A stretch of DNA of 35,419 bases, taken from the NCBI GenBank assembly GCA_031263445.1, contig JAISFV010000152.1:1-35419 (forward strand), read 5' to 3'. Source of the stretch: Synergistaceae bacterium (GTDB lineage: Bacteria > Synergistota > Synergistia > Synergistales > Synergistaceae). Both the position numbers and the translations under genes were made by a program. The notes under the pieces were generated by a model. The model did no database searches. It was not told the DNA's origin and saw nothing but the letters and a program-made list of their open reading frames with translations. Shown in pieces: positions 11,227-30,123 of this stretch; position 1 is the first letter of the stretch, and each line of letters begins with the position of its first letter.

Positions 11227-12696
11227 TCAAGAGTCGCGCAAGCGCCTTAAGGTAAAAACCAAGCCGTCTGCGTCAGGGGTCGGCAGCGTCACGGGCTTTC
11301 TCGCGAAAACCCTCTCGACCGTGCCGGCGCAGACAGGGCCCCATGCGATCAGTTCCACTCCCGCAGGGCGTCCGATCACTCGGGCAAATTCCTCAGACAG
11401 TGCCGAGCTGCCGAAAAGGACGGCGTCCAGCCCGCAAGCCTCCCACTGTTCCATCATGATATCCAAGCCCGGCACGTCCCTAGACATCATCCTGTACGTC
11501 GGCACGGAGGTCACGGAAGCGCCAGCGTCCTCGGCCGCGTCTGACGCGGAGTCCGAAGCGCGCTCATTGCGGGCGAAAACGACGGAATCGCCCGGCCTTA
11601 CCGCCTCGCGCAGCGAAGAGGCAAGGCTCTCGCTCGTACCTCCGGCGACCAGATCCGGCTCTATGCCTATCTGGCGGAGCGCAGCCGCCGTCCCGTTCCC
11701 TATAGCCGCGACGCGCCCCTTGACGCCCCGCAGGTCGCGGACGACCCTCCTGAGCTCCCTTGGGCCGCGCGGGCTGGTCAGCACCAGCCAGTCGGCGTTA
11801 CAGAGGGCTTGCGCGGCCTTCTTTGAATCGTCTGGCTCAAGCGGCGCCAGGGACAGCAGCGGAAGCCCGTAACAGTCCGCGCCAAGCCCCTCCAGCGCCC
11901 GCCCCGTATGCCAGCACTCGGGATAAGGGCGGCAGACCGCTACCTGCAACCCCTGGAGAGGACCCCTCTGCGGCGCAAGATCCATACCGGCAGTCCCCCC
12001 GACGTATATCACGGCCGGGGCCGGCAATCGTTGATTTTGCGACAGCCCGCTCATTTCAAGGAGCGTGCCGTCCATGCGGCGCGCCCTGCCCCACCCGCCC
12101 CATACGACGACCGTCACCCTCGTGTCCGGAGGCTTGCCCATATCGAGCAGCTTGCGGGACAGATCGCCGAAAGCGGACGCTCCCATGTACAGCGCCGCAG
12201 TCCCCGATCCCGTCATGCTCCGGAGGATATCGCAGTCATCTCTGTCCACTCTGCCTCGCCCGTGGCGGCCGGCGACCAGAGAAAGCGCGGGCGAGACGTC
12301 CCTGTGGGTGACGGGCAGCCCTGCGGAGACCGCCCCGCCGAACGCGGCAGACACGCCCGGGACGGCACTCCATTCGACGCCCGCCGAGCTGAGGGCCGCC
12401 GCCTCCTCCCCTCCGCGCCCGAATACGAACGGGTCGCCGCCCTTGAGCCTCACGACTGTTCCGCCCTCGCGTCCGAGCCTTATCAAAAGTTCGTTTATTT
12501 CGCCCTGCGGGATCGAGTGCAAGCTCCCTCTCTTCCCGACAGGATGAAAAATGCAGGACGGAGGGGCCAGTTGGAGGATGTCCGGGTGTATCAGACGGTC
12601 GTACACGACGTGACGGGCATTTGAGAGACACTCGCGGGCCGCTGCCGTGAGGAGCCGGGGCGACCCGCAGCCGGCACCGGTGAGTATGACGCTCAT
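11227..12696 (-). CDS. cobA/hemD: Uroporphyrinogen-III C-methyltransferase / uroporphyrinogen-III synthase fusion
   Basis: A 489-aa two-domain enzyme. Residues 1 to about 240 are the SAM-dependent methyltransferase that makes precorrin-2, with VILTGAGCGSP at the start, VVYDRLIHPDIL, VVRLKGGDPFVFGRGGEE and VPGVSAAFGGAVSAGLPVTHR. Residues from about 250 to the end are uroporphyrinogen-III synthase, weakly conserved as usual but recognisable by DWLVLTSPRGPRELRR, VAAIGNGTAAALRQIGIEPDLV and AVLFGSSALSEEF. The fusion makes uroporphyrinogen III and commits it to the corrin/siroheme branch in one polypeptide. Such fusions are known in Firmicutes and related anaerobes. The start overlaps the preceding precorrin-2 dehydrogenase-HemC gene by 4 bases (ATGA). 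Confidence 0.93.
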   Translation of the reverse strand: MSVILTGAGCGSPRLLTAAARECLSNARHVVYDRLIHPDILQLAPPSCIFHPVGKRGSLHSIPQGEINELLIRLGREGGTVVRLKGGDPFVFGRGGEEAAALSSAGVEWSAVPGVSAAFGGAVSAGLPVTHRDVSPALSLVAGRHGRGRVDRDDCDILRSMTGSGTAALYMGASAFGDLSRKLLDMGKPPDTRVTVVVWGGWGRARRMDGTLLEMSGLSQNQRLPAPAVIYVGGTAGMDLAPQRGPLQGLQVAVCRPYPECWHTGRALEGLGADCYGLPLLSLAPLEPDDSKKAAQALCNADWLVLTSPRGPRELRRVVRDLRGVKGRVAAIGNGTAAALRQIGIEPDLVAGGTSESLASSLREAVRPGDSVVFARNERASDSASDAAEDAGASVTSVPTYRMMSRDVPGLDIMMEQWEACGLDAVLFGSSALSEEFARVIGRPAGVELIAWGPVCAGTVERVFARKPVTLPTPDADGLVFTLRRLRDS

Positions 12697-14120
12697 CTCA
12701 TGGAAAAAGGCGCGGTGATGAGGGCCACGAGCGGCAGGGCGCGCATCTCGCCCCAGAGGCGGGACGCGAGCGCCAGAGCGTCATCGGCAGAGGCCACGCG
12801 ACCGCTGACGCCGGCTTCCGCGCACTCGCCGCGCAATGAGTAGAGCGCGGCATCGAGGCGCATCGTCCCGTCTGCCATCTCCCCTCTCACGCCTATCGGG
12901 CATACGCAACCTAGCCCTATGAGACGTAGCAATTCGCGCTCTGCCATGGTCTCGCACCACGTCTCAAAATGATTCAGATCGCGTGCCGTCTCCTCCTCTG
13001 GCGAACCGGCGCGGGCCTCTATCGCTATCGCCCCCTGGCCGGCCGCCGTTATGAACGGCAGTCTCACAGCGCCGCTGACGCTCATGCCAAGCCTGAAGAG
13101 CCCCGCCTCGGCGATTATCAGCGCGTCCATCTCGCCCTTTTCGAGCCGTGCCAAGCGCGTCTCGACATTGCCCCTGCACTTGACGAATTTGAGATCTCCC
13201 CTCACGCGCCCCGCCTGGGCCCGTCTCCTGAGGCTGGACGTACCCACCACGGCACCCCGCGGCAGGGAACCGAGCCCGCCGCCGCAGCGTGTCACGAGGA
13301 CATCGCTCACAGGCCCCCTCGGCAGGACGGACGCTATGGCGCACCCGTCGGGGAGGATGACCGGCATATCCTTCATGCTGTGAACAGCGAGGTCGCCTCT
13401 ACCGGCCAGCAGTTCCTCCTCCAATGCCTTCACGAAGGCCCCGAAGCCGCCAAACTCCCTCAGCTCAATCTCCCGGTTGCGGTCCCCGTGGCTTGTGACC
13501 GCCTCGCAGCGGGCGCTTATCCCTAGGCCTGACAGCGCCTTCACGCACTCGTCGGCCTGTGCCTGCGCGAGCGGGCTGTTCCTCGTCAAAATAGTCATCG
13601 TTTTTCGGCTTGGCGCCAGCGCGTCCTTGCCAGGAGCGGCTTCACCCCCGCGCAAGTTTTTTTGCTGCCGCGCGCGGGCGGCGATCCCCCTCTTGACCTC
13701 CGCAGCCGTTGCCGGGTCGCTCCCGCCGCTCGACACGCCCACGAAACAGCCGTCCATTTCGAACTGGGCGCACAGGGCAAAATCCCCGCGCAGACCGTTT
13801 GAGCAGGTATCCGCGGCACAGCGTTCCGCCCTGGCCATCGCCAGGACATCATCCAGCTCGTCTCTCGGCAGCGCGAGCACCGCAAAGGAACGCCCCTGGA
13901 AATCCTCCCGGGCTGCGGTTTTTTTCTCCCACGTTATTTCTCCCGCCGCCGCCAGGGCGCGAAGCCCCTCGGTGGCATCCGGGGAAATCAGCCTCACCCT
14001 CGCGCCGGAAGCCAGCATCGTCCCGACCTTGCGCTCGCCCACGCTGCCGCCGCCGACGACCAGTATTTCGTGCAGTCCGAGGTTGAGTGAGACTATCAGC
14101 CTGAACGGATTATCCGGCAT
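12693..14120 (-). CDS. hemC: Precorrin-2 dehydrogenase (SirC/CysG-N type) fused to hydroxymethylbilane synthase
   Basis: A 475-aa fusion. Residues 1 to about 160 are an NAD-dependent precorrin-2 dehydrogenase, with the dinucleotide-binding LVVGGGSVGERKVGTML and the GVSSGGSDPATAAEVK segment. From about residue 175 comes a complete hydroxymethylbilane synthase beginning ILTRNSPLAQAQADE. It has HSMKDMP with its catalytic aspartate (about residue 251), GTSSLRRRAQ, CRGNVETRLARL, and the cofactor-binding cysteine in GLGCVCPIG (about residue 405, where other HemC proteins read GGCQVPIG). One protein thus acts before and after uroporphyrinogen III, and the steps between are in the next gene's CobA-HemD. 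I chose ATG 14120, which overlaps the cbiG-cbiH stop by 11 bases; the extra upstream codons lie inside that gene. No internal stop or convincing internal ribosome site separates the domains. Confidence 0.9.
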   Translation of the reverse strand: MPDNPFRLIVSLNLGLHEILVVGGGSVGERKVGTMLASGARVRLISPDATEGLRALAAAGEITWEKKTAAREDFQGRSFAVLALPRDELDDVLAMARAERCAADTCSNGLRGDFALCAQFEMDGCFVGVSSGGSDPATAAEVKRGIAARARQQKNLRGGEAAPGKDALAPSRKTMTILTRNSPLAQAQADECVKALSGLGISARCEAVTSHGDRNREIELREFGGFGAFVKALEEELLAGRGDLAVHSMKDMPVILPDGCAIASVLPRGPVSDVLVTRCGGGLGSLPRGAVVGTSSLRRRAQAGRVRGDLKFVKCRGNVETRLARLEKGEMDALIIAEAGLFRLGMSVSGAVRLPFITAAGQGAIAIEARAGSPEEETARDLNHFETWCETMAERELLRLIGLGCVCPIGVRGEMADGTMRLDAALYSLRGECAEAGVSGRVASADDALALASRLWGEMRALPLVALITAPFSMR

Positions 14121-15759
14121 AGCCAGCTTCCTGCTCAGGCACGTCACGCGGCGGTTCCAGCCATACCTTCTTGCCGTCCGGCCCGATGCGCAATTCACGC
14201 GCCGTCGGGGAGAGGAAGAACATCACGGTACCGGCGTCCACGGCATCCGGGTCGAGCGCGTCTGCCGAAATTTCACGGACGGATTCGCCCTCACGCCCCG
14301 CGTCGCGCACCACGAGGAGTCGCCGATCCGAAAAAATGCGCCTGACATCCGCGAGCCTCTCCGCAAGACCCTCCCTTGCCGGATTAGAGAGCGCGACAGT
14401 CACGCCGCCGAGGGCCGCCCCTTCCAGCGCCAGGAGCGCGGACTCCCACGGCTGATGACGGTCGGAGAGCGAGAACATCGCAAGGCCGTTGGCATAAGGC
14501 GCGCCGATTGCCTTTGCGGCGGCCTGCACGGCGCTTACGCCCGGGATGACGCTTACGCGGAGATCCCCTGCCATAGCGAGCGCTGACGGGGCCGGCCCGA
14601 AGAGGCACGGGTCGCCGAACGAAAGCAGAGCCACTTCATAGCCGGACCTCGCGAGATCCATGGCGCGCCGCGCGCCGTCCTCTCCGACGCCGTAACGCTC
14701 TATTATCTTGCCGCCCCTGAGTGACGGAGGCAGCACGTCTACGTCCAGGTCACTTACGACTATGGCATCTGCGGATGACAGGGCGTTTGCCGCCTCCGCA
14801 GTCAAAAAAACGGCTCCGCCCGGCCCGGCACCGACGACGGACAGCCCGCCTGGCTTCGTGGGATCCGTTATCGAAAGCCCGACCGTGACGCCATCACCGC
14901 GTCCGTTATCGGGGACGCCTCCAGAAAATACCGTGAGCGGCAGCCCGTACAACCTGGCGAGTTCCGTGACGCCGCCCTCGCCTGACCCGGCTTCGTCTGT
15001 CCGAAGCCCGCTTAACGCCTCGGCGAGAAACGGACCGCCCGGGCTGGACGAGAGGGCTTTCCTGAGAGCCTTCTCCAGGTCTGACGGTGACGCGTCCCTC
15101 CCGCAACAAATTTCCGCCGCCACGACGCGCGGCACTATCTGCGGCTTCGCGCCGACGAGCCTCTGCGCGTTCCTTGGGGATATGATCAAATCCGCGTCCT
15201 GCTGGCGCGCCGTCGCCTCATAACCAAACGGGAGAGGAAGCGAGACGCCGCTGCCAGCCAGGACGGGATCGACCCAGACTGAAATCTTGCGGCTAGACAC
15301 GAGCTTCCGCACGACGGAGGGGAGGAGCGTCCGGAGCAGCATCCGCCAGTTGCGGCGCGACGCCCACAGATCCGGCGCGATCAAGCCGCTGCGGTCTGTC
15401 GCGGCAGTCGGGGCAAAAATAGCCCCAAAGGACGAGAGCGCGTCAGCACAGCTCCTCGCGAGGTCTGAAGCGCGGCCCATATGCCCGGGCAGCACGGGAA
15501 TCACGACGGCGCCGTCCTCCGATACCGCGACCAAGGCCGGGGTTTCAGCCTTGCCGCCGAGAAGAGGCGCTACGGAGCGGACGGCTGCGGACAGCGCCCC
15601 GATGAAGATAAAGGCGTCCGCCGCGTCCCATCTCGACGCAAAAGCCTCCGCCGCGTCATCGGCAATCGCGGCCCTCTCAGCACCAAGCGTTTCCGCCAGC
15701 TTCAGCGCGACATCGGCACCGCCCTCGTCGTGAAGGATGCAAACGTTTTTTTCCTGCAT
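14110..15759 (-). CDS. cbiG/cbiH: Cobalt-precorrin-5A hydrolase / precorrin-3B C17-methyltransferase fusion (CbiG-CbiH)
   Basis: A 549-aa fusion for corrin-ring contraction. The first ~290 residues are CbiG, with GALSAAVRSVAPLLGGK, VVIPVLPGHMGRASDLAR, ATDRSGLIAPDLWA and a C-terminal half starting near ADLIISPRNAQRLVG. From about residue 305 comes CbiH/CobJ, a tetrapyrrole methylase with LSVVGAGPGG, VALLSFGDPCLFG, VIPGVSAVQAAAKAIGAPY and SLSDRHQPWE. CbiH methylates C17 and closes the delta-lactone; CbiG then opens the lactone and releases acetaldehyde, so the fusion joins functionally consecutive steps. It is separated from cbiE by 119 bases, the largest gap in this cluster, and overlaps the SirC-HemC gene by 11 bases. 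The ribosome site is weak (GAGAG 4 bases upstream). Confidence 0.92.
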   Translation of the reverse strand: MQEKNVCILHDEGGADVALKLAETLGAERAAIADDAAEAFASRWDAADAFIFIGALSAAVRSVAPLLGGKAETPALVAVSEDGAVVIPVLPGHMGRASDLARSCADALSSFGAIFAPTAATDRSGLIAPDLWASRRNWRMLLRTLLPSVVRKLVSSRKISVWVDPVLAGSGVSLPLPFGYEATARQQDADLIISPRNAQRLVGAKPQIVPRVVAAEICCGRDASPSDLEKALRKALSSSPGGPFLAEALSGLRTDEAGSGEGGVTELARLYGLPLTVFSGGVPDNGRGDGVTVGLSITDPTKPGGLSVVGAGPGGAVFLTAEAANALSSADAIVVSDLDVDVLPPSLRGGKIIERYGVGEDGARRAMDLARSGYEVALLSFGDPCLFGPAPSALAMAGDLRVSVIPGVSAVQAAAKAIGAPYANGLAMFSLSDRHQPWESALLALEGAALGGVTVALSNPAREGLAERLADVRRIFSDRRLLVVRDAGREGESVREISADALDPDAVDAGTVMFFLSPTARELRIGPDGKKVWLEPPRDVPEQEAGYAG

Positions 15760-15878: not shown

Positions 15879-16523
15879 TCAGTGCCTCTCCAGCCAGAGC
15901 GTGCCCAGATCGCCCGCGTAGGGGCAACGGGCGAGATCCGCCAGGCTCTCGGCCTCGAACACCAGCTCGCCGGGCAGACCGAGATTCCAGCCTACGGCCG
16001 CCCACATGCCCGAAAGCGCCTCGTCCTCCGCCAGCCACCTGATATGAGATATCGCGTCATGCGCCGGCCCCAGCATCACGACGAGCGCCGCAGAACAGGC
16101 CAGCCTCTCCGCTAGCGCGCGCCGTTCCGGAAGCTCGCGGCCGTAAAGCGCCTCAGACGCCACGTTAACCCACGAACGCCCTATCCTGGCGGCAAGCAAC
16201 TGGATTGAGGCGAGGCCAGGCACTGTCGTGACGTTGTCCCTGCCAAATCGCGCGATCACTTTTTTCGCGAAGCTGTAGAAGCCAGGGTCGCCGCTCACGG
16301 CAAGCACGACATCCCCGCCGCGCGACTCCCTCTCCAGCACCCCCACGACCTCGTCTGACATGCCCGACTGCGGCAGCTCCACCATCCTCGCCCGTGACAG
16401 GGGCGCCGCCGCTTCGAGCATCTTCTTCCCGGCGATTATGACGCGGGCGGCAGACAGCGCGTCCGTTGCCTCGTCGGTCATATACCTAGGCACCCCAGGC
16501 CCCATGCCGACTACTCTGATCAT
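15879..16523 (-). CDS. cbiE: Cobalt-precorrin-7 C5-methyltransferase, CbiE
   Basis: A 214-aa tetrapyrrole methylase matching CbiE. It opens with IRVVGMGPGVPRYMT, has VVLAVSGDPGFYSFAKK in the middle and TVPGLASIQLLAARIGRSW, the SAM-binding and substrate loops of this branch. It methylates C5 of cobalt-precorrin-7 and, with CbiT, completes the conversion to cobalt-precorrin-8. CbiT is not fused here and is not present in the window. Its start overlaps the cbiD stop by 4 bases (ATGA). In the 119 bases after its stop I see no clear terminator or cobalamin-riboswitch box. Confidence 0.9.
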   Translation of the reverse strand: MIRVVGMGPGVPRYMTDEATDALSAARVIIAGKKMLEAAAPLSRARMVELPQSGMSDEVVGVLERESRGGDVVLAVSGDPGFYSFAKKVIARFGRDNVTTVPGLASIQLLAARIGRSWVNVASEALYGRELPERRALAERLACSAALVVMLGPAHDAISHIRWLAEDEALSGMWAAVGWNLGLPGELVFEAESLADLARCPYAGDLGTLWLERH

Positions 16524-17638
16524 TTGAGCGCGTCCGCGTTTTTCCTTATCTCACCGATCAGCCCGTCGAGGTTCGGAGTCCTCGCGAGCTCCCTGTCAGG
16601 CAGCGAAAACGTCAGGCACGCGCACTCGGACACTCCCATCGCGCCCGTCCTGGCCGTTTTGACGATCCTTTCGACCAGTTCAAAGAGCGCAGCCCGTCCC
16701 CACTCGGTCTTCGAAATCCTCGTGGCCACCTCGTCGGCCATCGAGCTGTCCAGTATAGCGCGCACTTCCCCGCTGTCGGCGCCGTGCAGGGCGGAATAAG
16801 CCGCCAGGGCTTCCAGGCGTCCGTCGCTCTTAGAGCTGTGCGTGTCGAGCGAACCCGCTGAAAGTTTGGCGAACTTTCCTATCTGGCCGATGAGGATGAG
16901 TTTTTCGAACCCTAAATTGCCGCTGACAGCCAGCGCGTCTCCCGCGAAATTGCTTATGTTGACGATCATCCTCCCAGGCACGCCCAAGAGCATTGCCATC
17001 CTGCGCCCGTAATTGCCAGGCACGAGGCACACAATCCGCGCGCCCGAGGCCGAGAGCGCGGACAGCTCGGACTTTATCGCGTCCATGACGGCTTCCGCGC
17101 TCATAGCGGGCGCGAGCGCGTTATCGCTGATGATGGACAGCCCGCCCACGATCCCGAGCCTGGGGTTGTACGTCCTCTTGGCAAGCTCCTCGCCGCCCGG
17201 GATCGAGATAGAGATGATCGCGCCGCTTCCCGGAGGCAGCTCCGCCTCGATGGATTTCCTGATGAGCGCCAGCGAGCTCTGGTTGATGGCCGCTTTCCCA
17301 GGGCTGATGGGGAGGCCGGGCTTCGTGACCACCCCGACGCCCTTGCCGCCCAGCACCGTGATGCCAGGGACGCCCAAGATCTCGACGGACGAGACCACGA
17401 CGGTACCGTGAGTGACGTCCGGGTCGCCGCCTGAATCCTTCGTCACCCAAGCCTCGGCGCCCTTCTCCGTTCTGAGGCACCCGGTGACCGGGATGGCCAC
17501 GTCTCTTCCGGCCGGCAGGGAAAGCCCGACGCTGGAACAGCTCTTGTCCGTCAAAAAGCGCACTGACGCAACAGCCGCCGCTGCGGCGGCCGTCCCGATA
17601 GTAAAGCCTTTAGCCCCACCGTAGTCCGCCTGATCCAT
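16520..17638 (-). CDS. cbiD: Cobalt-precorrin-5B C1-methyltransferase, CbiD
   Basis: A 372-aa CbiD, first gene of the cobalamin run. The start GFTIGTAAAAAAVA corresponds to the family's GFTTGTCAAAAAKA, here with alanine where cysteine is usual. GVGVVTKPGLPISPGKAAIN and NPRLGIVGGLSIIS are well conserved. The enzyme methylates C1 of cobalt-precorrin-5B in the anaerobic pathway and is a marker for early cobalt insertion. A good ribosome site (GGGAGGT, 5 bases from ATG) supports this start. A candidate promoter and two inverted repeats lie upstream between 17660 and 17845. Confidence 0.93.
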   Translation of the reverse strand: MDQADYGGAKGFTIGTAAAAAAVASVRFLTDKSCSSVGLSLPAGRDVAIPVTGCLRTEKGAEAWVTKDSGGDPDVTHGTVVVSSVEILGVPGITVLGGKGVGVVTKPGLPISPGKAAINQSSLALIRKSIEAELPPGSGAIISISIPGGEELAKRTYNPRLGIVGGLSIISDNALAPAMSAEAVMDAIKSELSALSASGARIVCLVPGNYGRRMAMLLGVPGRMIVNISNFAGDALAVSGNLGFEKLILIGQIGKFAKLSAGSLDTHSSKSDGRLEALAAYSALHGADSGEVRAILDSSMADEVATRISKTEWGRAALFELVERIVKTARTGAMGVSECACLTFSLPDRELARTPNLDGLIGEIRKNADALK

Positions 17639-17881: not shown

Positions 17882-18679
17882 TCAGCTATGAGGGGCTTCC
17901 GCGCTACGGCGACGGAGCCAGTCGTCGATGAGCATCCGCGAGATGCTGATCCTAGGGGGCAAATTGGGGAGATCGTAGGGCGTAAACCAGCGGACGTCCG
18001 TCATCTCCACCCCGTCCGGACAGGGCTCGCCGCTCTCCCAGTCGGCGTGGAAACCCAGCATCATGGACGACGGAAACGGCCACGGCTGGCTGCCGGCGTA
18101 GCAGATGTTTTTGATCTTTACGCGGGACTCCTCGTAGACCTCCCTCTCCACAGCGGCCTCGACCGTTTCGCCCGGCTCTACGAAACCCGCCAGCACGCTG
18201 TAGCGGCCGCTCGGGAAGCTCGCGTTGTGCCCCAGGAGGATCATGCCGTCCCTCTCCACCGCCACTATCATCGCCGGGCTGAGCGACGGGAATACGACGC
18301 GCCCGCAGCTCGGACAGAAGCGGGCCGTCTCCGTGTCGTGGTCGCGCATCGGCGCGCCGCACCTTCCGCAGTGCTTGTTATCCAAGTGAAGGTTCATCAT
18401 TTGGAATGCCGCGCCGGAGCGCAGGAAGAGCCGATGCCCCAGAATCGCCGCAAGGTCACGCCGGCTCACCGCTACGAACTCGTCAGGGACGACAGCGCCT
18501 GCCGCGGCCAGCCCCCATGTTTCGCCCGTGCCGGCCGTCCAAGACACGACGCCGGAGCACTCCAAAATGTCCCTGTAGCTTTCGATTTCTGAGGATCTGG
18601 GCGGAACCATCCCGGCCCGGTAAAGGAACACGTTCGCCTCGCGCGTCCTGTCGAACAGGAAGAGCGGTCCGTCAGACAC
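17882..18679 (-). CDS. nudC: NAD(+) diphosphatase (NudC-type Nudix hydrolase)
   Basis: A 265-aa NudC-family protein, which hydrolyses NAD(H) to NMN(H) and AMP and in E. coli also removes NAD caps from RNA. Three family marks are visible: a four-cysteine zinc ribbon (CGRCG about residue 104 and CPSCG about 122), a Nudix box GFVEPGETVEAAVEREVYEES, and the NudC-specific SQPWPFPSS. In the Nudix box the glycine usually found after EE-x is replaced (EESR), but the catalytic REVYEE core is intact. It overlaps the preceding AMP-ligase gene by 8 bases and is the last gene of a four-gene minus-strand run. Confidence 0.92.
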   Translation of the reverse strand: MSDGPLFLFDRTREANVFLYRAGMVPPRSSEIESYRDILECSGVVSWTAGTGETWGLAAAGAVVPDEFVAVSRRDLAAILGHRLFLRSGAAFQMMNLHLDNKHCGRCGAPMRDHDTETARFCPSCGRVVFPSLSPAMIVAVERDGMILLGHNASFPSGRYSVLAGFVEPGETVEAAVEREVYEESRVKIKNICYAGSQPWPFPSSMMLGFHADWESGEPCPDGVEMTDVRWFTPYDLPNLPPRISISRMLIDDWLRRRSAEAPHS

Positions 18680-20147
18680 CGCGTAGCTCCTTTTTCAGCA
18701 CCTTGCCGAAGCTGTCCTTCGGGAGGGCGTCCAGCAGCTTCACGGACCGCGGCGCCTTGTAGTTCGGAAGCCTCGACCTCCCGTACTTCACGATGTCATA
18801 CGGGCGGACGGCGCTCCCCTCTTTCTGGACGACATAGGCCTTGACCGTCTCTCCCTTGATCCCGCCCGGGACGCCGACGACGGCGACCTCCGAGATGTCC
18901 GGGTGGCCCTTTAAAACAGCCTCGACCTCGGCCGGGTAAACGGGCGCGCCGCCTGCCATGATCACATCGACAGCGGGGGAGACTATCGTTATGAAACCAT
19001 CCTCATCAATCCTTACAATGTCCTGCGCGTCGAACCAGCCGTCCCTGAAGCGTTCTGCTGTAAGGGCCGGCGTCCTGTAGTAGCCGCCCGTTACGGCGTC
19101 CCCGCGAAGCCAGAGCCTGCCGTCGCTGCCAAAGGGGAGTATCTGGCCGTCGTCACCCCGCACCTCGGCGTCGAAACAGGGCAATATCTTCCCAGACGAA
19201 CCCGGCTTCGAGCTGCCGGCCCCTGGCGTGACCGCAAGCACGGACGAAGCCTCCGTGAGGCCGTAGCCTTCCAGCGGCTCGACGCCGAATATCTCCCTCG
19301 CGCGCGCGGCTATGCCAGGGGTGAGCTCGCCGCCGCCATAAAAGACGAGCTTCACCTTCGACATCGGCGCGATCTCGCGCTCCCCGCCCAGGAGGATGCC
19401 AAGGAGCGTCGGCACGGCAGGGATGATGGTGACCCCCGCAGAGCGGATCGCGGCCAGGGCGTTCTTCGGCGGGACGAAGGACGAGACGACCACCTGCGGC
19501 ATCCCTGAAGCGAGCGGCATTATCCCGCCGATCACGAAACCGAGCGAGTGGTAGTTGGGTATCGCGTTCAGTATGACGTCGTCCTCGTCAATGGACGGTA
19601 TAGTTTCCAATATGGACGACAGGAGAGTGATGATGTTCACGTGCGTAATGGGGACGGCCTTTACGTCGCCGCCCGCGCCGCTAGTGTGGAACAGCACTGC
19701 GTTATCGGAGTCTCCGTCAGGGACGCTCTCGCGGCCAGCTATAGAGGGCGCGGCGTCGCCAAGCTCCGCCGAAACGGCAGGGATGCCCTCGGAGCGGACA
19801 TGCTCGACGAGGCCCTCGATCTCAGGGCTCATGATCGCGCCGAAGACGTCCACGCTCTTGAGGTAATCTACGAGCGGCGGGTGCTTCAACTGCGGGTTCA
19901 CGGGAACCACCGTGCCGCCGAGCTTCCAGACGGCTATGGAGGAAGCCAGCATGAGGGGGCTGTTCGGCAGCACCAGCGCCAAACGCCGCCCCGGCGAAAA
20001 CCCGCCTTTCGCGAGGTTCTCCTCGCACTCCGTCGCCATCTCCTCGAGCGTCCCCCTCGACCACCACGCGCCGCGCCACCAGAGACATGGCTCCGTGGAC
20101 GCTTTCGCGAAATTCTGCGTGACAAGCTCTTCCAGCCTTTGGCTCAT
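18672..20147 (-). CDS. AMP-forming acyl-CoA synthetase/ligase family protein, divergent
   Basis: A 491-aa member of the adenylate-forming (ANL) superfamily. The phosphate loop reads LFHTSGAGGDVKAVP rather than TSGTTGxPKG. GYGLTEAS and the DGWFDAQDIVRIDEDGF hinge region are good. The C-terminal lysine motif (DSFGKVLKKEL) is present, so adenylation is still possible. The segment that usually reads GRxKDxI reads SPAVDVI, losing the conserved basic residues. The natural substrate (fatty, aryl or amino acid) cannot be told. The frame is open to 20291, but ATG 20147, following GGGAGGG, is the first start after the upstream gene's stop; the extra 48 residues lie inside that gene. It is sandwiched between an M20 amidohydrolase and NudC. 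Confidence 0.83.
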   Translation of the reverse strand: MSQRLEELVTQNFAKASTEPCLWWRGAWWSRGTLEEMATECEENLAKGGFSPGRRLALVLPNSPLMLASSIAVWKLGGTVVPVNPQLKHPPLVDYLKSVDVFGAIMSPEIEGLVEHVRSEGIPAVSAELGDAAPSIAGRESVPDGDSDNAVLFHTSGAGGDVKAVPITHVNIITLLSSILETIPSIDEDDVILNAIPNYHSLGFVIGGIMPLASGMPQVVVSSFVPPKNALAAIRSAGVTIIPAVPTLLGILLGGEREIAPMSKVKLVFYGGGELTPGIAARAREIFGVEPLEGYGLTEASSVLAVTPGAGSSKPGSSGKILPCFDAEVRGDDGQILPFGSDGRLWLRGDAVTGGYYRTPALTAERFRDGWFDAQDIVRIDEDGFITIVSPAVDVIMAGGAPVYPAEVEAVLKGHPDISEVAVVGVPGGIKGETVKAYVVQKEGSAVRPYDIVKYGRSRLPNYKAPRSVKLLDALPKDSFGKVLKKELRGV

Positions 20148-20170
20148 CGAGGCATCGTCCCTCCCGTTCC

Positions 20171-21364
20171 CTACAACAGCAGGCCCATGTACGCGCTCCA
20201 CGCCGAGGCGAACGGGAGCAGGTTCTCCGGGATGTCGTACCTTGCGTGATAGAGTCCGTACTCCATGCCTGTGCCAAGGAACATCAGGCACGACGGAATC
20301 TGCTCGGAATAAAACGAGAAGTCCTCTCCGAGGAGGAGAGGGCTTCTCAAAAGTTCCATGGAATCGCTTCCTATAAGGGCCGTCCCGTACTTGAAAACAT
20401 CCGACACGAGACTCTCGCTGTTTACCACCTGGTTATAGTCGAGCGTATATTCGACCGACGCGGCGATATGGGAGAGGCGCGCAAGGCCCTTCACGATCTC
20501 CTCTATCCGCGTCTTGAGAACTCTGTGGGTCGCATTGTCGACAGACCTGAGAGTGCCCCAGAGATGGGCTTCCTCCGCTATCACGTTGTACACCTCCGCA
20601 GCCTCCATGCGACCGAACGACAGGACGACGGTGCTGGCCGGGTTTACCTCCCTGGTGATCATGCCCTGGAGCGCGAGCTGCACTTCTGCTGAGAGGTATA
20701 CCGGGTCGCTCGTCAGGTATGGGGTCGGTCCATGCCCCCCGGGCCCGGTAAGCCCTATGTGTACCTTGCTGGAGAAAGCGGTGACACCGCCTTTGTTCGT
20801 TATTATCTGCCCATAAGGGAGGTGCGGTATCCAGTGGACACAGAGCATTCTCTCTATGCTGAACGCGCCGATCAGATCCGCGTCTATCAGGTGCTTCGCG
20901 CCGCCCTTGCCCTCCTCGGCGGGCTGGAAGATAAACACCACCGGGCGCGTCAAAAGGCTTCTGTGCTCGCAAAGCAACGTGGCCGCCCCTAGGAGCGACG
21001 CCATGTGGGCGTCGTGTCCCTGAACGTGCGAAACCCTGTTGTCGTAGGAGCTGAACGGCAGCCCCGTATCCTCACGGACTTCCACGGCGTCTATCTCCGC
21101 CCTGAAAGCGAGAGCCCCGCCCGGGAGTTCTCCGCCCAGCCTGCCGATGACGCACGTCTGCAAGCCGAAACCCTTGAACACTTCCATCCCTGGCATCGAC
21201 TGCAGGATGCTCTCTATCTTCCCGGACGTCATATACTCCTCGAGGCCCAGTTCAGGGAACTGGTGAAACCTCCTCCTGTACTCGACGATTTCCTCCGTCA
21301 TGCCCTCCGCTTCGGAGAGCAGCTTTACGCCGAGATCCGCTGCTACGGCCAGGTCCTTAAACAT
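20171..21364 (-). CDS. M20-family amidohydrolase, altered metal ligand
   Basis: A 397-aa protein of the M20D amidohydrolase group, whose members cleave amide bonds of N-acyl amino acids or hippurate-like substrates using two metals. The family frame is clear: RRRFHQFPELGLEE (30-43), FRAEIDAV (88-94), GHDAHMASLLGAA (116-128), FQPAEEG (147-152), VHWIP near 178 and GGHGPTPY in the lid domain. The usual HACGHDxH reads HVQGHDAH here, so the metal-binding cysteine is glutamine (residue 115). The two histidines and the glutamate pair remain. It starts 5 bases after the CbiA-like gene and is followed 23 bases later by the AMP-ligase, so the three are likely co-transcribed. An acyl-amino-acid hydrolase next to an acyl-activating enzyme suggests linked chemistry, but this is inference. 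Confidence 0.85.
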   Translation of the reverse strand: MFKDLAVAADLGVKLLSEAEGMTEEIVEYRRRFHQFPELGLEEYMTSGKIESILQSMPGMEVFKGFGLQTCVIGRLGGELPGGALAFRAEIDAVEVREDTGLPFSSYDNRVSHVQGHDAHMASLLGAATLLCEHRSLLTRPVVFIFQPAEEGKGGAKHLIDADLIGAFSIERMLCVHWIPHLPYGQIITNKGGVTAFSSKVHIGLTGPGGHGPTPYLTSDPVYLSAEVQLALQGMITREVNPASTVVLSFGRMEAAEVYNVIAEEAHLWGTLRSVDNATHRVLKTRIEEIVKGLARLSHIAASVEYTLDYNQVVNSESLVSDVFKYGTALIGSDSMELLRSPLLLGEDFSFYSEQIPSCLMFLGTGMEYGLYHARYDIPENLLPFASAWSAYMGLLL

Positions 21365-21369
21365 AAAAC

Positions 21370-22761
21370 CTAGCCCTCCAGCCAGCGCCGGAAGAGATCA
21401 GGGGCGCTCCACGGCTCGACCCTCATGGAAGCGGCCAGAATCCTGTCCTTGGACCAGCCGTCGCGTGATGTCTTCTTGTGATCCAGGGCATCCACGGTTG
21501 TCCAGCACTCGTCCTCTTCCTCGGAAGCCACCATGGAGTAAGAGTCGGAGGCGTAGCCCATAACGCGCTCCCGCGAACCGGTGAGGAGAGGGTTATCCTT
21601 GCGTTTGGATGCCTCTAATTTTTTGATGCTCCCAAACGTCGCCCTCTTATAAATGCTGTTAAAGGGCAGTATCCCAAAACCCCTGCCCTCGCCCTGCCCT
21701 TCCGGCAGGATAATCCTGTCGCCTAAGACCGCCGACGACCCGCCCTCCGCGAAGAGGAAAGCCCCTCCCGTCGAACCCCTGGCGAGCATGGTCTTAAGGT
21801 AAATGTTGCTGAAAAATTTCGGCAGGGCTATGTAAGCCAGACCGTGCGGCAGGTACACGCCATGTATCGGCACGCTGTGGGTTATGCTGCCCACGAGCGG
21901 GATATCCACGACGTTGCATCCCAGCACCCTCAGCAGATGCTCCGTGCCGTCGCCCGAAATCGAAAGCACAGGGTGCTTCACGACTGCGATGTTGACCTTG
22001 CCGCTGTCCGTTATGGCATCGCACAGGCGCGGCTGGCGCGGCCACACCGGCGCCGCCTGCGCCATGGCACTGAAGAGCGCCCAGTTGACCATCTGGTTCA
22101 TGCTCACGAGCTGCTTCGCGGCAGAGCGGACGGGCAGGGCGACCTGAGCGGCGGAGTCGGAGCAGAGTTGCAGGAGAGAGGGCGAATCGCGCTCAACGAC
22201 GCGCGGCATGGAACCGACCGAAAAGGCCGTGAAGATCCGCCTGGCCTCGCGGTCAACCAGCTCGTATTCCCTGTTGTTCAGTATAGCGCGGAATAAGATG
22301 GCGCGAACAGGCTTCCCTCCGTCCTCGATCTGCCGGATGACCGCAGCGACTGACCGCACCGTCAGAGTCGAAGAGGCGTCGCTGTATATTATCGGGACGA
22401 CGTCGCAGTTCAGCCAATCGGAGAGCAGCGCGCACTCTTTCGGCACCTTGAAGGGCGCGTCCTCGAGAATTCGCCCGCCCAGGTTCGCCAGGACGAGGTT
22501 TATGCAGTCAGGCGAGGCCGCGCTCTCGAACAGCCAACGCAGGTTTGCCTGCCCGCCGCACAGCGTGGGGTCGAGCAGTGTCACGGGCTGGTTGCAGATG
22601 ACCTGCAGTGAGCGTATTGTGAGCTCATCCGCGTTACCGACAAAAAGTTTTATTTTGTAACCAAGCTCTTTCAGGGCGCTTGCTATCAAAACCCCCGACG
22701 GGACCTTGCCCGATCTATGTTCGTCAGCTAATATCAATCTCGGAAGGTTCAAAGACAACAT
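21370..22761 (-). CDS. CbiA/CobB-like protein with degenerate active sites
   Basis: About 463 aa. The overall order resembles cobyrinate a,c-diamide synthase. An N-terminal P-loop-like region (LILADEHRSGKVPSGVLIASALKELGYKIKLF in several pieces) leads to a region like the CbiA GPDYxDP segment. A C-terminal type-1 glutamine amidotransferase-like domain holds GVYLPHGLAYIALPKFF, FAEGGSSAVLG and GFGILPF. The P-loop lacks the GxxxGxGKT pattern, and the glutaminase nucleophile in AECGG is absent (AEGGS). The closing histidine region is also unrecognisable. It therefore looks like a pseudoenzyme or a member with a new function. The frame opens with GTG 22776; ATG 22761 lies directly after AAAGGGG, and TTG codons at 22758 and 22752 are also possible. 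It heads a run with the amidohydrolase, AMP-ligase and nudC and diverges from a PEP/pyruvate-binding protein gene. The homology is my reading by eye. Confidence 0.6.
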   Translation of the reverse strand: MLSLNLPRLILADEHRSGKVPSGVLIASALKELGYKIKLFVGNADELTIRSLQVICNQPVTLLDPTLCGGQANLRWLFESAASPDCINLVLANLGGRILEDAPFKVPKECALLSDWLNCDVVPIIYSDASSTLTVRSVAAVIRQIEDGGKPVRAILFRAILNNREYELVDREARRIFTAFSVGSMPRVVERDSPSLLQLCSDSAAQVALPVRSAAKQLVSMNQMVNWALFSAMAQAAPVWPRQPRLCDAITDSGKVNIAVVKHPVLSISGDGTEHLLRVLGCNVVDIPLVGSITHSVPIHGVYLPHGLAYIALPKFFSNIYLKTMLARGSTGGAFLFAEGGSSAVLGDRIILPEGQGEGRGFGILPFNSIYKRATFGSIKKLEASKRKDNPLLTGSRERVMGYASDSYSMVASEEEDECWTTVDALDHKKTSRDGWSKDRILAASMRVEPWSAPDLFRRWLEG

Positions 22762-22859: not shown

Positions 22860-24575
22860 GTGGGACAGTCTCTCGAAAATTATGACGCGTTCAGGGGGGA
22901 AGATTTCTTCCGCGATAGAGGGAGCCTCATCGGCGCCGGGAACTGCGGCGGAAAAGCCAAGGGGATTGCGTATGCTTACGCTGCTCTTTCCGGAACGCAG
23001 ATCGGGGAGAAAATCAGCTTTCCTGACCTCACTGTCGTGCTTTCCACCGAGGTATTCAGAGATTACCTAGACGCAAACCGCTTGTCCGGACTCTATGACG
23101 ACGAGGACTGGGCCAGGGTCCAGGAGCGGATCTCGGAGTCCCCGCTGCCTCCGGCGATAACGGCGGAACTCTCGGACATACTGGATCGTTTCGACGCGAT
23201 CGGCACCCCTCCTCTCGCCGTGCGCTCGAGCTCGCTCATGGAAGATTCAGTCTCCCTCGCGTTCGCAGGTAAGTACCAAACATGCTTTTCCCCTAACTGC
23301 GGCCCGAAACAGTATCGCCTGTCGCTGCTCGAATCCAGCGTCCGTACCGTGTTCGCTTCGGTATTCAACCCATCAGCGAGGGCTTACCGCGAAAAGCACG
23401 GCAAAAAACACAGAGACGAGGCTATAGCGGTAATTATACAGTCTCTTTCAGGAAAAAACCATGGCAGCTTCTTCTACCCGGAGCTCGCGGGTACCCTTTT
23501 CTCTCGCGTCTTCCGCCGGCCGAACCCCAGGATAAAGAAGGAGGACGGCCTCATGCGCCTCTGCTTCGGCATGGGGACGAGGTCTGTGGACCGTTGCGCC
23601 GCGAGGATCTTCTACCTGACAAACCCGTCCCTGCTCCCGGCGGGGAACCTCCCGGCCCAGGTCGCTGAGGCGAGCCAGGAGAACTTCGATTACATAGACA
23701 TGGGATCGTGCGAATTCGCGAGCGGGGCCCTGTCAGAATTCGCCCCTTTCCTGCAAAAGGAACACAAGAACTACGGCGCCTATGTGCAGATCTACGCCGA
23801 CGACTTCTTGTACTCCACCTTGGGCGGGCCGGAGGGGCCGAGCCGGCCCATCTTCTCCTTCCCCGAGATGCACCTGAAGGAACGCGGGCTTTTCGACCTT
23901 TCCAGGGAACTCCTCCGCCACATGGAGGACACGTCGGGCATCCCGGTCGACATAGAGTTCGCGTGCGAGACAAGCCCGGAAAGGGACTTCCGGCTGCTCC
24001 AGCTCCGCCCCCTGGCCGCTTACGAGGAGATGAGCCGCGTGGAGATTCCCGAGACCCCTGACGAAAAAATAATTTTCAAGGGCGACAGAATGGTGAGCAA
24101 CGGCCTGCTGGAGAACGCGGAGTACCTCGTGTACGTCAGCGCGGAGGCGTACAAGGGCGAATGGGACCCGTCCGCAGCGGCGAGGGCGATCGGGGAGCTG
24201 AACGGAAAGCTGGAGGGCACGAAATACATCCTTGCGGGCCCTGGCAGGTGGGGCAGCAGAAACCCTGCGCTCGGCGTGCCGGTCCTGTACGCTCAGATAT
24301 GCAACTGCGGCTGCCTTGTCGAAATAAGCGTCCCCGAGCTGAATTTCTCGCCTGAGCTGTCATACGGCACCCATTTTTTCCTGGACATGGACTCCGACGG
24401 CACGCTCTACCTGCCGGTCTTCGGCAGACAGAAAAAGAACAAATTCAACACGGACTGGCTTGAGAGTACCCCCTACGAGACCGGCGATCACCCGTCTGTG
24501 CGCCTTTACAGGGGCAGCTTTTCCGTGTACCTCGACGGGGAACTGGAGACGGGCATAATAGTAGCGGCTGAGTAA
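22860..24575 (+). CDS. PEP/pyruvate-binding (PPDK N-terminal) domain protein without a phosphohistidine domain
   Basis: A 571-aa protein with the ATP-grasp-like PEP/pyruvate-binding domain of pyruvate phosphate dikinase. Conserved points are NCGGKAKGIAYAYAAL near residue 28, the VRSSSLMEDS and FAGKYQT loop near 120-138, FGMGTRSVDR, and VDIEFACE with LLQLRPLA near 385-400. The central phosphohistidine domain and the C-terminal TIM barrel of PPDK/PEP synthase are absent. Instead there is a C-terminal domain with ILAGPGRWGSRNP and GTHFFLD, a known arrangement in uncharacterised PEP/pyruvate-binding proteins. Full PEP synthesis is therefore not expected, and the reaction is unknown. The start is GTG with GGAGGAG 5 bases upstream. 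It is transcribed alone, divergently from the CbiA-like gene. Confidence 0.82.
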   Translation: MGQSLENYDAFRGEDFFRDRGSLIGAGNCGGKAKGIAYAYAALSGTQIGEKISFPDLTVVLSTEVFRDYLDANRLSGLYDDEDWARVQERISESPLPPAITAELSDILDRFDAIGTPPLAVRSSSLMEDSVSLAFAGKYQTCFSPNCGPKQYRLSLLESSVRTVFASVFNPSARAYREKHGKKHRDEAIAVIIQSLSGKNHGSFFYPELAGTLFSRVFRRPNPRIKKEDGLMRLCFGMGTRSVDRCAARIFYLTNPSLLPAGNLPAQVAEASQENFDYIDMGSCEFASGALSEFAPFLQKEHKNYGAYVQIYADDFLYSTLGGPEGPSRPIFSFPEMHLKERGLFDLSRELLRHMEDTSGIPVDIEFACETSPERDFRLLQLRPLAAYEEMSRVEIPETPDEKIIFKGDRMVSNGLLENAEYLVYVSAEAYKGEWDPSAAARAIGELNGKLEGTKYILAGPGRWGSRNPALGVPVLYAQICNCGCLVEISVPELNFSPELSYGTHFFLDMDSDGTLYLPVFGRQKKNKFNTDWLESTPYETGDHPSVRLYRGSFSVYLDGELETGIIVAAE

Positions 24576-24726: not shown

Positions 24727-25188
24727 TTATTTCACAAGAAATACGCCCCACAGCCCGAAGCTGAGGCCGACCATGAAAATCGCCGTTATGAGCGCCACCA
24801 CGAGCAAAAACTCGCTCCAGCTCCTCTTCTTGGGCGCTTCGACCTCCCGCTCCGCATAGCTGGCCGGATCCTTGGACGGGAATCCGGACTCGTCCGGATG
24901 GATAAAGTCGGGGTACGAGTATTCGTTTATTTCGACCTCGAGGAGATCCGCTATCAGCGAGTCAAGCGTAGTTGACAGCGACTCCTGCTTGTCGTCGGCT
25001 TCAAGTGGGAGCGTGATGGCGGCGTCCATATCCACGCGGGCCACGAACTCCTGCTCCATTTTATCCAATTTCGCTACCAAGCTCTCGCGCCGTTCCGAGG
25101 CACTGCGAGTGATTTTAATTTCTTCTTCAGTCACTGGGTCACTGAGCTTGACTCCAGTCCCAGCGGAAGCATACAGATCGTCTTCCAT
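24727..25188 (-). CDS. Hypothetical protein with a C-terminal membrane anchor
   Basis: About 153 aa of unknown function. The N-terminal ~120 residues are hydrophilic and acidic, with a possible helical or coiled stretch around ERRESLVAKLDKMEQEF. They are followed by a basic patch (EAPKKRSW) and a single hydrophobic segment of about 22 residues ending four residues before the C-terminus. This is the layout of a tail-anchored protein facing the cytoplasm. The start is uncertain: the frame opens with TTG 25242, whose ribosome site AAGGA is only 3 bases away. ATG 25188 has AGGAGG 12 bases upstream. It converges with the PEP/pyruvate-binding gene across a 151-base spacer. No family recognised. Confidence 0.6.
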   Translation of the reverse strand: MEDDLYASAGTGVKLSDPVTEEEIKITRSASERRESLVAKLDKMEQEFVARVDMDAAITLPLEADDKQESLSTTLDSLIADLLEVEINEYSYPDFIHPDESGFPSKDPASYAEREVEAPKKRSWSEFLLVVALITAIFMVGLSFGLWGVFLVK

Positions 25189-25242
25189 TGTCAGCCTGGG
25201 CCTCCTCTCCGGCTTATCGCGGCTAAACGACGACGAAGCCAA

Positions 25243-28290: not shown

Positions 28291-28547
28291 TCAAGCGCAG
28301 AATCAACGCTCAGAGCGAGTGATCCCGCATATTTAAAAAACGCGCGGCAAAAAAGCCCGATATCACGTTTCACGAAAATCACTCCTTCACACGAACCTGG
28401 CTTGCCGCGAACGCGCAGGACTCGCACTGCATGGGCGCGCCGCATATTTCTGAGAGCTGCCCATGTTCTAATTATCCCATCACGGTTATGTTTGTCAAGT
28501 TCGGCTCCGCTGCCCGACGGATGCCGTCACTTTCGGCCCTTCCCACT

Positions 28548-28582
28548 CAGCCCTTCTCACTGTATCATATGTAAAAGGGCTG
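28548..28582 (+). repeat. Perfect 8-bp inverted repeat in the cobQ leader
   Basis: CAGCCCTT (28548-28555) and AAGGGCTG (28575-28582) are exact complements with a 19-base AT-rich loop; ATTTTTCTG follows on the + strand. It ends 38 bases before the cobQ start. It could be an operator flanking a promoter (TATCAT lies in the loop) or an attenuator-like hairpin. Confidence 0.45.
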
Positions 28583-28620
28583 ATTTTTCTGCAAGAAACC
28601 ACAGACAAGGCGGTGCAAAT

Positions 28621-30123
28621 ATGGCGAAATCCATAATGGTTCAAGGCACTATGTCGAACGCGGGCAAGAGCATACTCGTGTCCGCGCTGTGCCGGATATT
28701 CAAGCAGGACGGGTATAAGGTCGCGCCGTTCAAATCCCAGAACATGGCCTTGAATTCGTTTATCACACGCGACGGCCTCGAAATGGGCAGGGCGCAAGTC
28801 ACTCAGGCGGAGGCGGCGGGCATCGAGCCGGACGTCAGGATGAACCCCATATTGCTGAAGCCGGTTCACGACCAAGGATCACAGGTGATTTTGCACGGCG
28901 AGGTTTTCGACACGATTACCGCGAGAAACTACTACGCCATGAAGCCGAAGCTCAGGCCGGAGGTAATGAAAGCCTACAACTCGCTTGCGGACGAGTTTGA
29001 CGTGATCGTGCTAGAGGGCGCCGGTTCCGCAGCGGAACTGAACCTCGGAGATGACGATTTCGTGAACATGGGCATGGCAAAGATGGCCCAGGCCCCAGTG
29101 CTGGTCGCGGGCGACATAGACCGCGGCGGTATTTTCGCGCAGTTGTACGGCACGGTCAAAATTTTGCCTGACGACGAAAGCAGCCTGATCAAGGCGTTGA
29201 TCGTCAACAAGTTTCGCGGGGACGCGTCGCTGTTCGAGAGCGGCGTGAAAATCCTGGAGGACATCTGCGGCAAACCCGTGGCGGGCGTCGTCCCGTACCT
29301 CGATGTGGACATAGACGACGAGGACAGCGTGACGGAGCGCATGTCGCGCGGAAGCGTAAGCGCGGTGCTGGACATTGCCGTAATTTTCCTGCCGCATATC
29401 TCTAATTTCACCGATTTCGCCGCGCTGGAGGCGACGCCAGGCGTGAGGGTGCGCTACGTCAAGGAGCCATACCGCCTCGGAAACCCCGACCTCGCGATCA
29501 TCCCTGGCTCCAAGAGCACGATTTTCGACCTGCTCCGTCTGCGCGAGAGCGGGCTGGAAGAGGGCATAAAGCGGCTGGCGAGCCGCGGCGTGCCCCTCCT
29601 TGGCATCTGCGGCGGCTATCAGATGTTAGGCGAAAGCATAAACGACAGCGAAGGCGCGGAGGGCGGCGGCACGGTCGCAGGCATGGGATTGCTGCCCGTC
29701 GATACCGAGTTTGCCAGCGAAAAGCACCGCACACGCGTCTCGGCGGCCGCGCTTGACATTGGCGGCACCCTCGCACCGCTGGCGGGATCCAGGCTGGAGG
29801 GATACGAAATCCACATGGGCGTGTCGACGCTCAAGGGCGGCGCAAAGCCATTGCTCAAATTGAGCAACGGCATGTTCGACGGATGTCAGTACGGCGACGT
29901 CTACGGCACGTACCTGCACGGATTTTTCGACAGCGCGGAGTGCCGTGACGCCATTCTGAACGCGCTCGCGGACCGCAAAGGCGTAACGCTCACGGAAAAA
30001 GCGTTCGACTTCGCCGCGTACAAGGAACGCAATTACGACTTGCTCGCGCAGGGTGTGCGCGACTCGCTCGACATGCGGCTAATTTACCGCATCCTGGAGG
30101 GCGGCATGGGCTACGGGATATGA
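28621..30123 (+). CDS. cobQ: Cobyric acid synthase CobQ/CbiP
   Basis: A 500-aa cobyric acid synthase that amidates side chains b, d, e and g of adenosylcobyrinate a,c-diamide using glutamine and ATP. The N-terminal nucleotide-binding loop reads IMVQGTMSNAGKS (residues 5-17), followed by VAPFKSQNMALNS. The C-terminal glutamine amidotransferase domain has its catalytic cysteine in LLGICGGYQMLG (near residue 329) and the histidine in YGTYLHGFFD (near 437). All expected motifs are intact and the length is normal. ATG 28621 is preceded by AAGGCGGTG; the open frame to 28402 is non-coding by composition. Its TGA overlaps the ATG of a DUF1850 gene by 4 bases. It is 11 kb from the other cobalamin genes. 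Confidence 0.96.
   Translation: MAKSIMVQGTMSNAGKSILVSALCRIFKQDGYKVAPFKSQNMALNSFITRDGLEMGRAQVTQAEAAGIEPDVRMNPILLKPVHDQGSQVILHGEVFDTITARNYYAMKPKLRPEVMKAYNSLADEFDVIVLEGAGSAAELNLGDDDFVNMGMAKMAQAPVLVAGDIDRGGIFAQLYGTVKILPDDESSLIKALIVNKFRGDASLFESGVKILEDICGKPVAGVVPYLDVDIDDEDSVTERMSRGSVSAVLDIAVIFLPHISNFTDFAALEATPGVRVRYVKEPYRLGNPDLAIIPGSKSTIFDLLRLRESGLEEGIKRLASRGVPLLGICGGYQMLGESINDSEGAEGGGTVAGMGLLPVDTEFASEKHRTRVSAAALDIGGTLAPLAGSRLEGYEIHMGVSTLKGGAKPLLKLSNGMFDGCQYGDVYGTYLHGFFDSAECRDAILNALADRKGVTLTEKAFDFAAYKERNYDLLAQGVRDSLDMRLIYRILEGGMGYGI

Follow-up and report, generated by a model that had tools for sequence, protein, structure and literature searches.

A Synergistales paralogue of cobyrinate a,c-diamide synthase that lacks both catalytic signatures and may serve in binding or regulation

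The CbiA-like gene and its locus

The window analysed here is a stretch of 35,419 nucleotides from a Synergistaceae bacterium. A gene for a degenerate CbiA-like protein occupies 21370..22761 on the minus strand. Its product has 463 amino acids if translation begins at ATG 22761, or possibly 460 amino acids if it begins at TTG 22752. The TTG, which lies near the point where the orthologues begin to align, may be the true start, since the sequence AAAGGGG touches ATG 22761 without any spacer.

Three genes follow on the same strand. The first, encoding an M20 family amidohydrolase (TIGR01891; 20171..21364), starts 5 bases past the point where the CbiA-like gene stops, and the 3' end of the latter contains a GGAGG sequence. 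It is followed by genes for an AMP-binding acyl ligase (18672..20153, start approximate) and a NudC-type NAD diphosphatase (17882..18679). An earlier sequence-only reading of this DNA had placed the CbiA-like gene at the head of an operon with these three genes, and the tight spacing bears this out; linkage to nudC is restricted to the window's own subclade. The same reading correctly identified a divergent gene for a PEP/pyruvate-binding (PPDK_N) protein, which lies on the plus strand at 22860..24575. Beyond it, positions 24727-25242 on the minus strand encode a 171-residue protein with a hydrophobic stretch at its C-terminal end and without a Pfam match. Homologues of this protein occur near the PEP-binding gene in four other loci, three in the same genus and one in a near genus.

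Genes for cobalamin synthesis flank the operon on both sides. Directly downstream are cbiD (16520-17638), cbiE (15879-16523) and a CbiG-CbiH fusion gene (14110-15759, minus strand), and a cobyric acid synthase gene (28402-30123) lies on the other flank. The CbiG-CbiH gene is the second of two apparent fusions; the other (12693-14198, minus strand), as read from its sequence only, joins a precorrin-2 dehydrogenase-like part to HemC.

Kinship with CbiA and loss of both active sites

Searches with the single CbiA-like sequence were not decisive. Its match to Pfam GATase_3 (E 0.016, 15.3 bits) fell below the cut-off of 27, and a PDB sequence search with this protein alone returned no match. Among 25 orthologues, 13 matched the CobB model PRK01077 (best 2e-13), nine matched TIGR00379 (best 1.4e-14) and five matched the CfbB model NF033195 (best E 7.6e-8). 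The orthologue scores against TIGR00379 were at most 53.6 bits among the matches listed, compared to a cut-off of 261.4, and no curated family was matched above its own cut-off. Profile-profile comparison with hhalign, in which the CbiA side consisted of 18 genuine CbiA proteins from the Synergistales, aligned residues 8-458 of the CbiA-like protein with residues 1-447 of CbiA over the full length (probability 99.7, E 5.7e-26). From the orthologue matches to TIGR00379 together with this full-length match, we conclude that kinship with CbiA is far above chance. In a phylogenetic tree the CbiA-like family formed one clade (support 0.79) separate from the CbiA clade (0.98).

Structure prediction was consistent with this relationship. 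In the AlphaFold2 model of the CbiA-like protein (pLDDT 91.3, pTM 0.92), strands and helices follow one another as they do in the model of a genuine CbiA (pLDDT 90.7), and the nucleophile elbow is retained as a strand at 335-339 followed by a helix at 340-346, with Gly340 at the tip where CbiA has Cys. Foldseek searches of the PDB with the CbiA-like model matched CTP synthase across both halves, HisH and GatD with the C-terminal half, and MinD, FleN and NifH with the N-terminal half. The genuine CbiA model, used as a control, also found CTP synthase, GatD and HisH within its best 50 matches, with better E-values. Both the full-length profile match and the model thus agree with the earlier proposal that the two-domain order of cobyrinate a,c-diamide synthase has been kept.

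The catalytic signatures were examined in an alignment of 72 orthologue sequences from 71 genomes, one genome being represented twice. In the region equivalent to the CbiA P-loop (residues 13-24; codons at 22690..22725, minus strand), profile-profile alignment placed 'ADEHRSGKVPSG' of the CbiA-like protein opposite 'GTHSGTGKTTIV' of CbiA. None of the 72 orthologues contained a P-loop, and the position of its Ser/Thr was Val or Ile in 68 of them. The protein reads AEGGS at the place of CbiA AECGG, and the column of the glutaminase nucleophile Cys (Gly340; codon at 21742..21744, minus strand) was Gly in 72/72 sequences. The C-terminal H-x-H of CbiA aligned with R447-V-E449, within an RVEPWS segment (residues 447-452; codons at 21406..21423, minus strand), and the catalytic His column (447) was His in five sequences and not His in the remaining 67. 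Residue 158, whose counterpart in CbiA is the conserved Asn148, was variable. The sequence-only reading had reported the loss of the GxxxGxGKT P-loop, the loss of the glutaminase Cys and an unrecognisable C-terminal His region in this one protein; all three hold for it, and the first two are common to every aligned orthologue. The loss of both old active sites is therefore family-wide, and this is strong evidence that the family is non-catalytic in the CbiA sense.

Among known systems, CbiA/CobB (TIGR00379, PRK01077) resembles the family in the full-length profile match, in the order of domains and structural elements and in the nucleophile elbow. It differs in possessing the P-loop Gly-Lys-Ser/Thr, Asn148, the Cys nucleophile and the catalytic His, and in lacking the new set of invariant Trp, Glu and Arg residues described below; the family also falls under both curated cut-offs (TIGR00379 and GATase_3). 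The Ni-sirohydrochlorin a,c-diamide synthase CfbB (NF033195), which acts in coenzyme F430 synthesis, belongs to the same superfamily, but its match was weaker than that of CbiA and the ATP and glutaminase motifs of its reaction are absent from the CbiA-like family. The top profile match among solved structures (E 4e-4) was GatD, the glutaminase subunit of lipid II isoglutaminyl synthase (5n9m, 6gs2), which shares the GATase_3 fold. GatD is a separate chain that partners MurT and has an active Cys, whereas the CbiA-like protein carries a fused N-terminal CbiA-type domain and has no Cys at that position.

Conservation of the CbiA-like family within the Synergistales

High-scoring orthologues were present in 73 of 183 Synergistales genomes and in none of five further Synergistota genomes outside this order. 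A contig scan restricted to close relatives matched close Synergistaceae MAGs only, and a plasmid search gave no match to the CbiA-like gene. In many genomes a genuine CbiA with intact motifs coexists with the CbiA-like gene. Our literature search found no description of the family, and under the names searched these genes are absent from a paper on the CodY regulon of Synergistetes (PMC9318921). The family thus seems to be an undescribed CbiA paralogue that is dead at both active sites.

Although the CbiA catalytic residues are gone, other positions are strictly conserved. Trp451, Gly340, Gly183, Phe78 and Phe40 were found in 72/72 orthologues, and Glu14 and Arg8 were invariant in all aligned sequences that cover those positions. 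Trp227, Arg175 and Trp436 were nearly invariant, residues 162-166 form a conserved N-x-R-E-Y motif, and position 449 is Glu or Asp. In eight orthologue pairs dN/dS ranged from 0.12 to 0.21, a ninth pair being too similar to inform. We conclude that the family is kept by purifying selection.

Possible roles of the CbiA-like protein

The interpretation we favour, with a probability of about 0.55, is that this repurposed CbiA paralogue is a putative non-catalytic pseudoenzyme with a binding or regulatory role. We arrive at such a role by elimination and from the set of residues that have newly become invariant. An ancient paralogue of cobyrinate a,c-diamide synthase in the Synergistales would have retained the two-domain fold, lost the P-loop and the glutaminase nucleophile, and been maintained by selection for its non-catalytic role. 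Its ligand would most likely be a small molecule or another protein, bound at the surfaces that formerly held the substrate and at those between the domains; these would have been rebuilt with Glu14, the N-x-R-E-Y motif (162-166), Arg175, Trp227, Trp436 and Trp451. The CbiA-like protein could then have a sensing or regulatory task, perhaps within the metabolism of amino acids or acyl amides. That it binds or regulates, where its binding surface lies and which area of metabolism it serves are all inferred.

The same invariants might just as well make up a new active site, and we regard it as rather unlikely, though a serious competitor, that the fold has become a new enzyme with an active site built from invariant acidic, Arg and Trp residues. 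Its putative reaction would need neither P-loop ATP nor glutamine hydrolysis. The strongly conserved residues E14, R8, R175, E449/D, W227, W436 and W451, which differ from those of CbiA, and the frequent presence of enzymes (M20, ligase) in the same operon are consistent with this idea. However, the protein has no recognisable catalytic motif and belongs to no curated family, and in several lineages the locus persists without the CbiA-like gene.

The neighbouring genes bear on a further alternative, in which the CbiA-like protein serves the downstream M20 amidohydrolase and acyl ligase as a subunit or as an allosteric scaffold. The genes are adjacent and tightly spaced, and in a survey of 71 loci the M20 gene came next in 35 and the ligase gene lay downstream in 40, in each case across several families. 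Of the divergent neighbours, 28 were AsnS and 29 were the PEP-binding protein. The earlier reading had proposed testing whether the operon travels together; it does so only in part, since M20 and the ligase accompany the gene at about half of the loci, nudC is linked in one subclade alone, and the locus also occurs with the CbiA-like gene missing. We retrieved 13 loci via the ligase from genomes without a detected orthologue, a few of which are short contigs and undecidable. At five of these loci (L159, L160, L161, L164 and L166) AsnS adjoins the M20 or ligase gene with 76-268 bases between them, and a profile search at maximum sensitivity found no remnant of the CbiA-like gene there. Conversely, in many f3 genera the CbiA-like gene is accompanied by neither M20 nor ligase; nine genomes have it behind a HI0933-type flavoprotein gene, usually with Tex as well. 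The M20-ligase operon is therefore conserved across families, yet separable from the CbiA-like gene in both directions. For this reason the two neighbours are weak evidence for the role of the CbiA-like protein, and we consider a scaffold role, or an obligate partnership with them, improbable. Phylogenetic profiling of the ligase gave no information, since 173 of 183 genomes carry close homologues, frequently at least two each.

Both neighbours have altered catalytic motifs in the window's subclade, which would fit a scaffold role. The M20 protein at 20171-21364 has Gln (HVQGHDAH) at the usual Cys, which is a metal ligand in the M20D family. This Cys-to-Gln change was present in 18/18 sequences from genera g1, g12, g13 and g17 of f1, which make up the subclade, and the Cys was kept in all 17 sequences from other genera. 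The ligase at 18672-20153 reads HTSGAGGDVK in its A3 motif, an adenylation motif of the ANL family, compared to the usual TSGTTGxPK. Sequences resembling HT[SAG]GAGGDVK were found in 8/8 ligases of the subclade; elsewhere nearly all ligases had the usual motif and no readable one was altered, a single fragmentary f4 ligase being unreadable there. These sequence changes suggest that the whole module has drifted in function in these f1 genera.

Descent from the CbiA lineage and the cbi genes that flank the operon in the window could point to a corrinoid or tetrapyrrole binder with a retained cobyrinate site, which would assist cobalamin metabolism as a chaperone or a sensor. Among the 183 genomes, however, the CbiA-like gene was associated with neither the presence of cbiA (Fisher p 0.36) nor that of cbiD (p 0.09); as these tests take no account of phylogeny or of incomplete drafts, they give no evidence for a link but do not disprove one. 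Moreover, 21 genomes, several of them 97-99% complete, have the CbiA-like gene and neither cbiA nor cbiD, and many invariants of the CbiA synthetase domain are replaced. With these markers the family has no detectable link to cobalamin, and we consider a corrinoid binder very improbable. The sequence-only reading had stated that the context is not cobalamin synthesis, which is correct across the order but not locally. As a separate observation, assemblies G000 and G001 contain cbiD and no intact cbiA was found in them, for which draft incompleteness could be the explanation; G002 and G003, from the same genus, have both genes.

A decaying CbiA pseudogene, as the loss of both signatures in the window copy might suggest, is ruled out by changes shared among the orthologues of 73 genomes, by intact reading frames, by the low dN/dS values and by the separate clade of genuine CbiA. 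No orthologue with intact motifs was found among the 72, which argues for a repurposed branch and not for decay.

A putative binding or regulatory pseudoenzyme thus remains our preferred reading. In wider terms, we put forward only tentatively that an order-wide family has lost both amidotransferase chemistries and been rebuilt as either a metabolite sensor or a different enzyme. The family plainly illustrates a pseudoenzyme whose role is hidden, held under purifying selection across an order after both sites of an ATP-dependent glutamine amidotransferase were lost. Since some lineages keep the locus without the CbiA-like gene, this role can be sought by comparison. Annotating these CbiA-like proteins as cobyrinate a,c-diamide synthase would lead to an overcount of the potential for B12 synthesis in the Synergistota.
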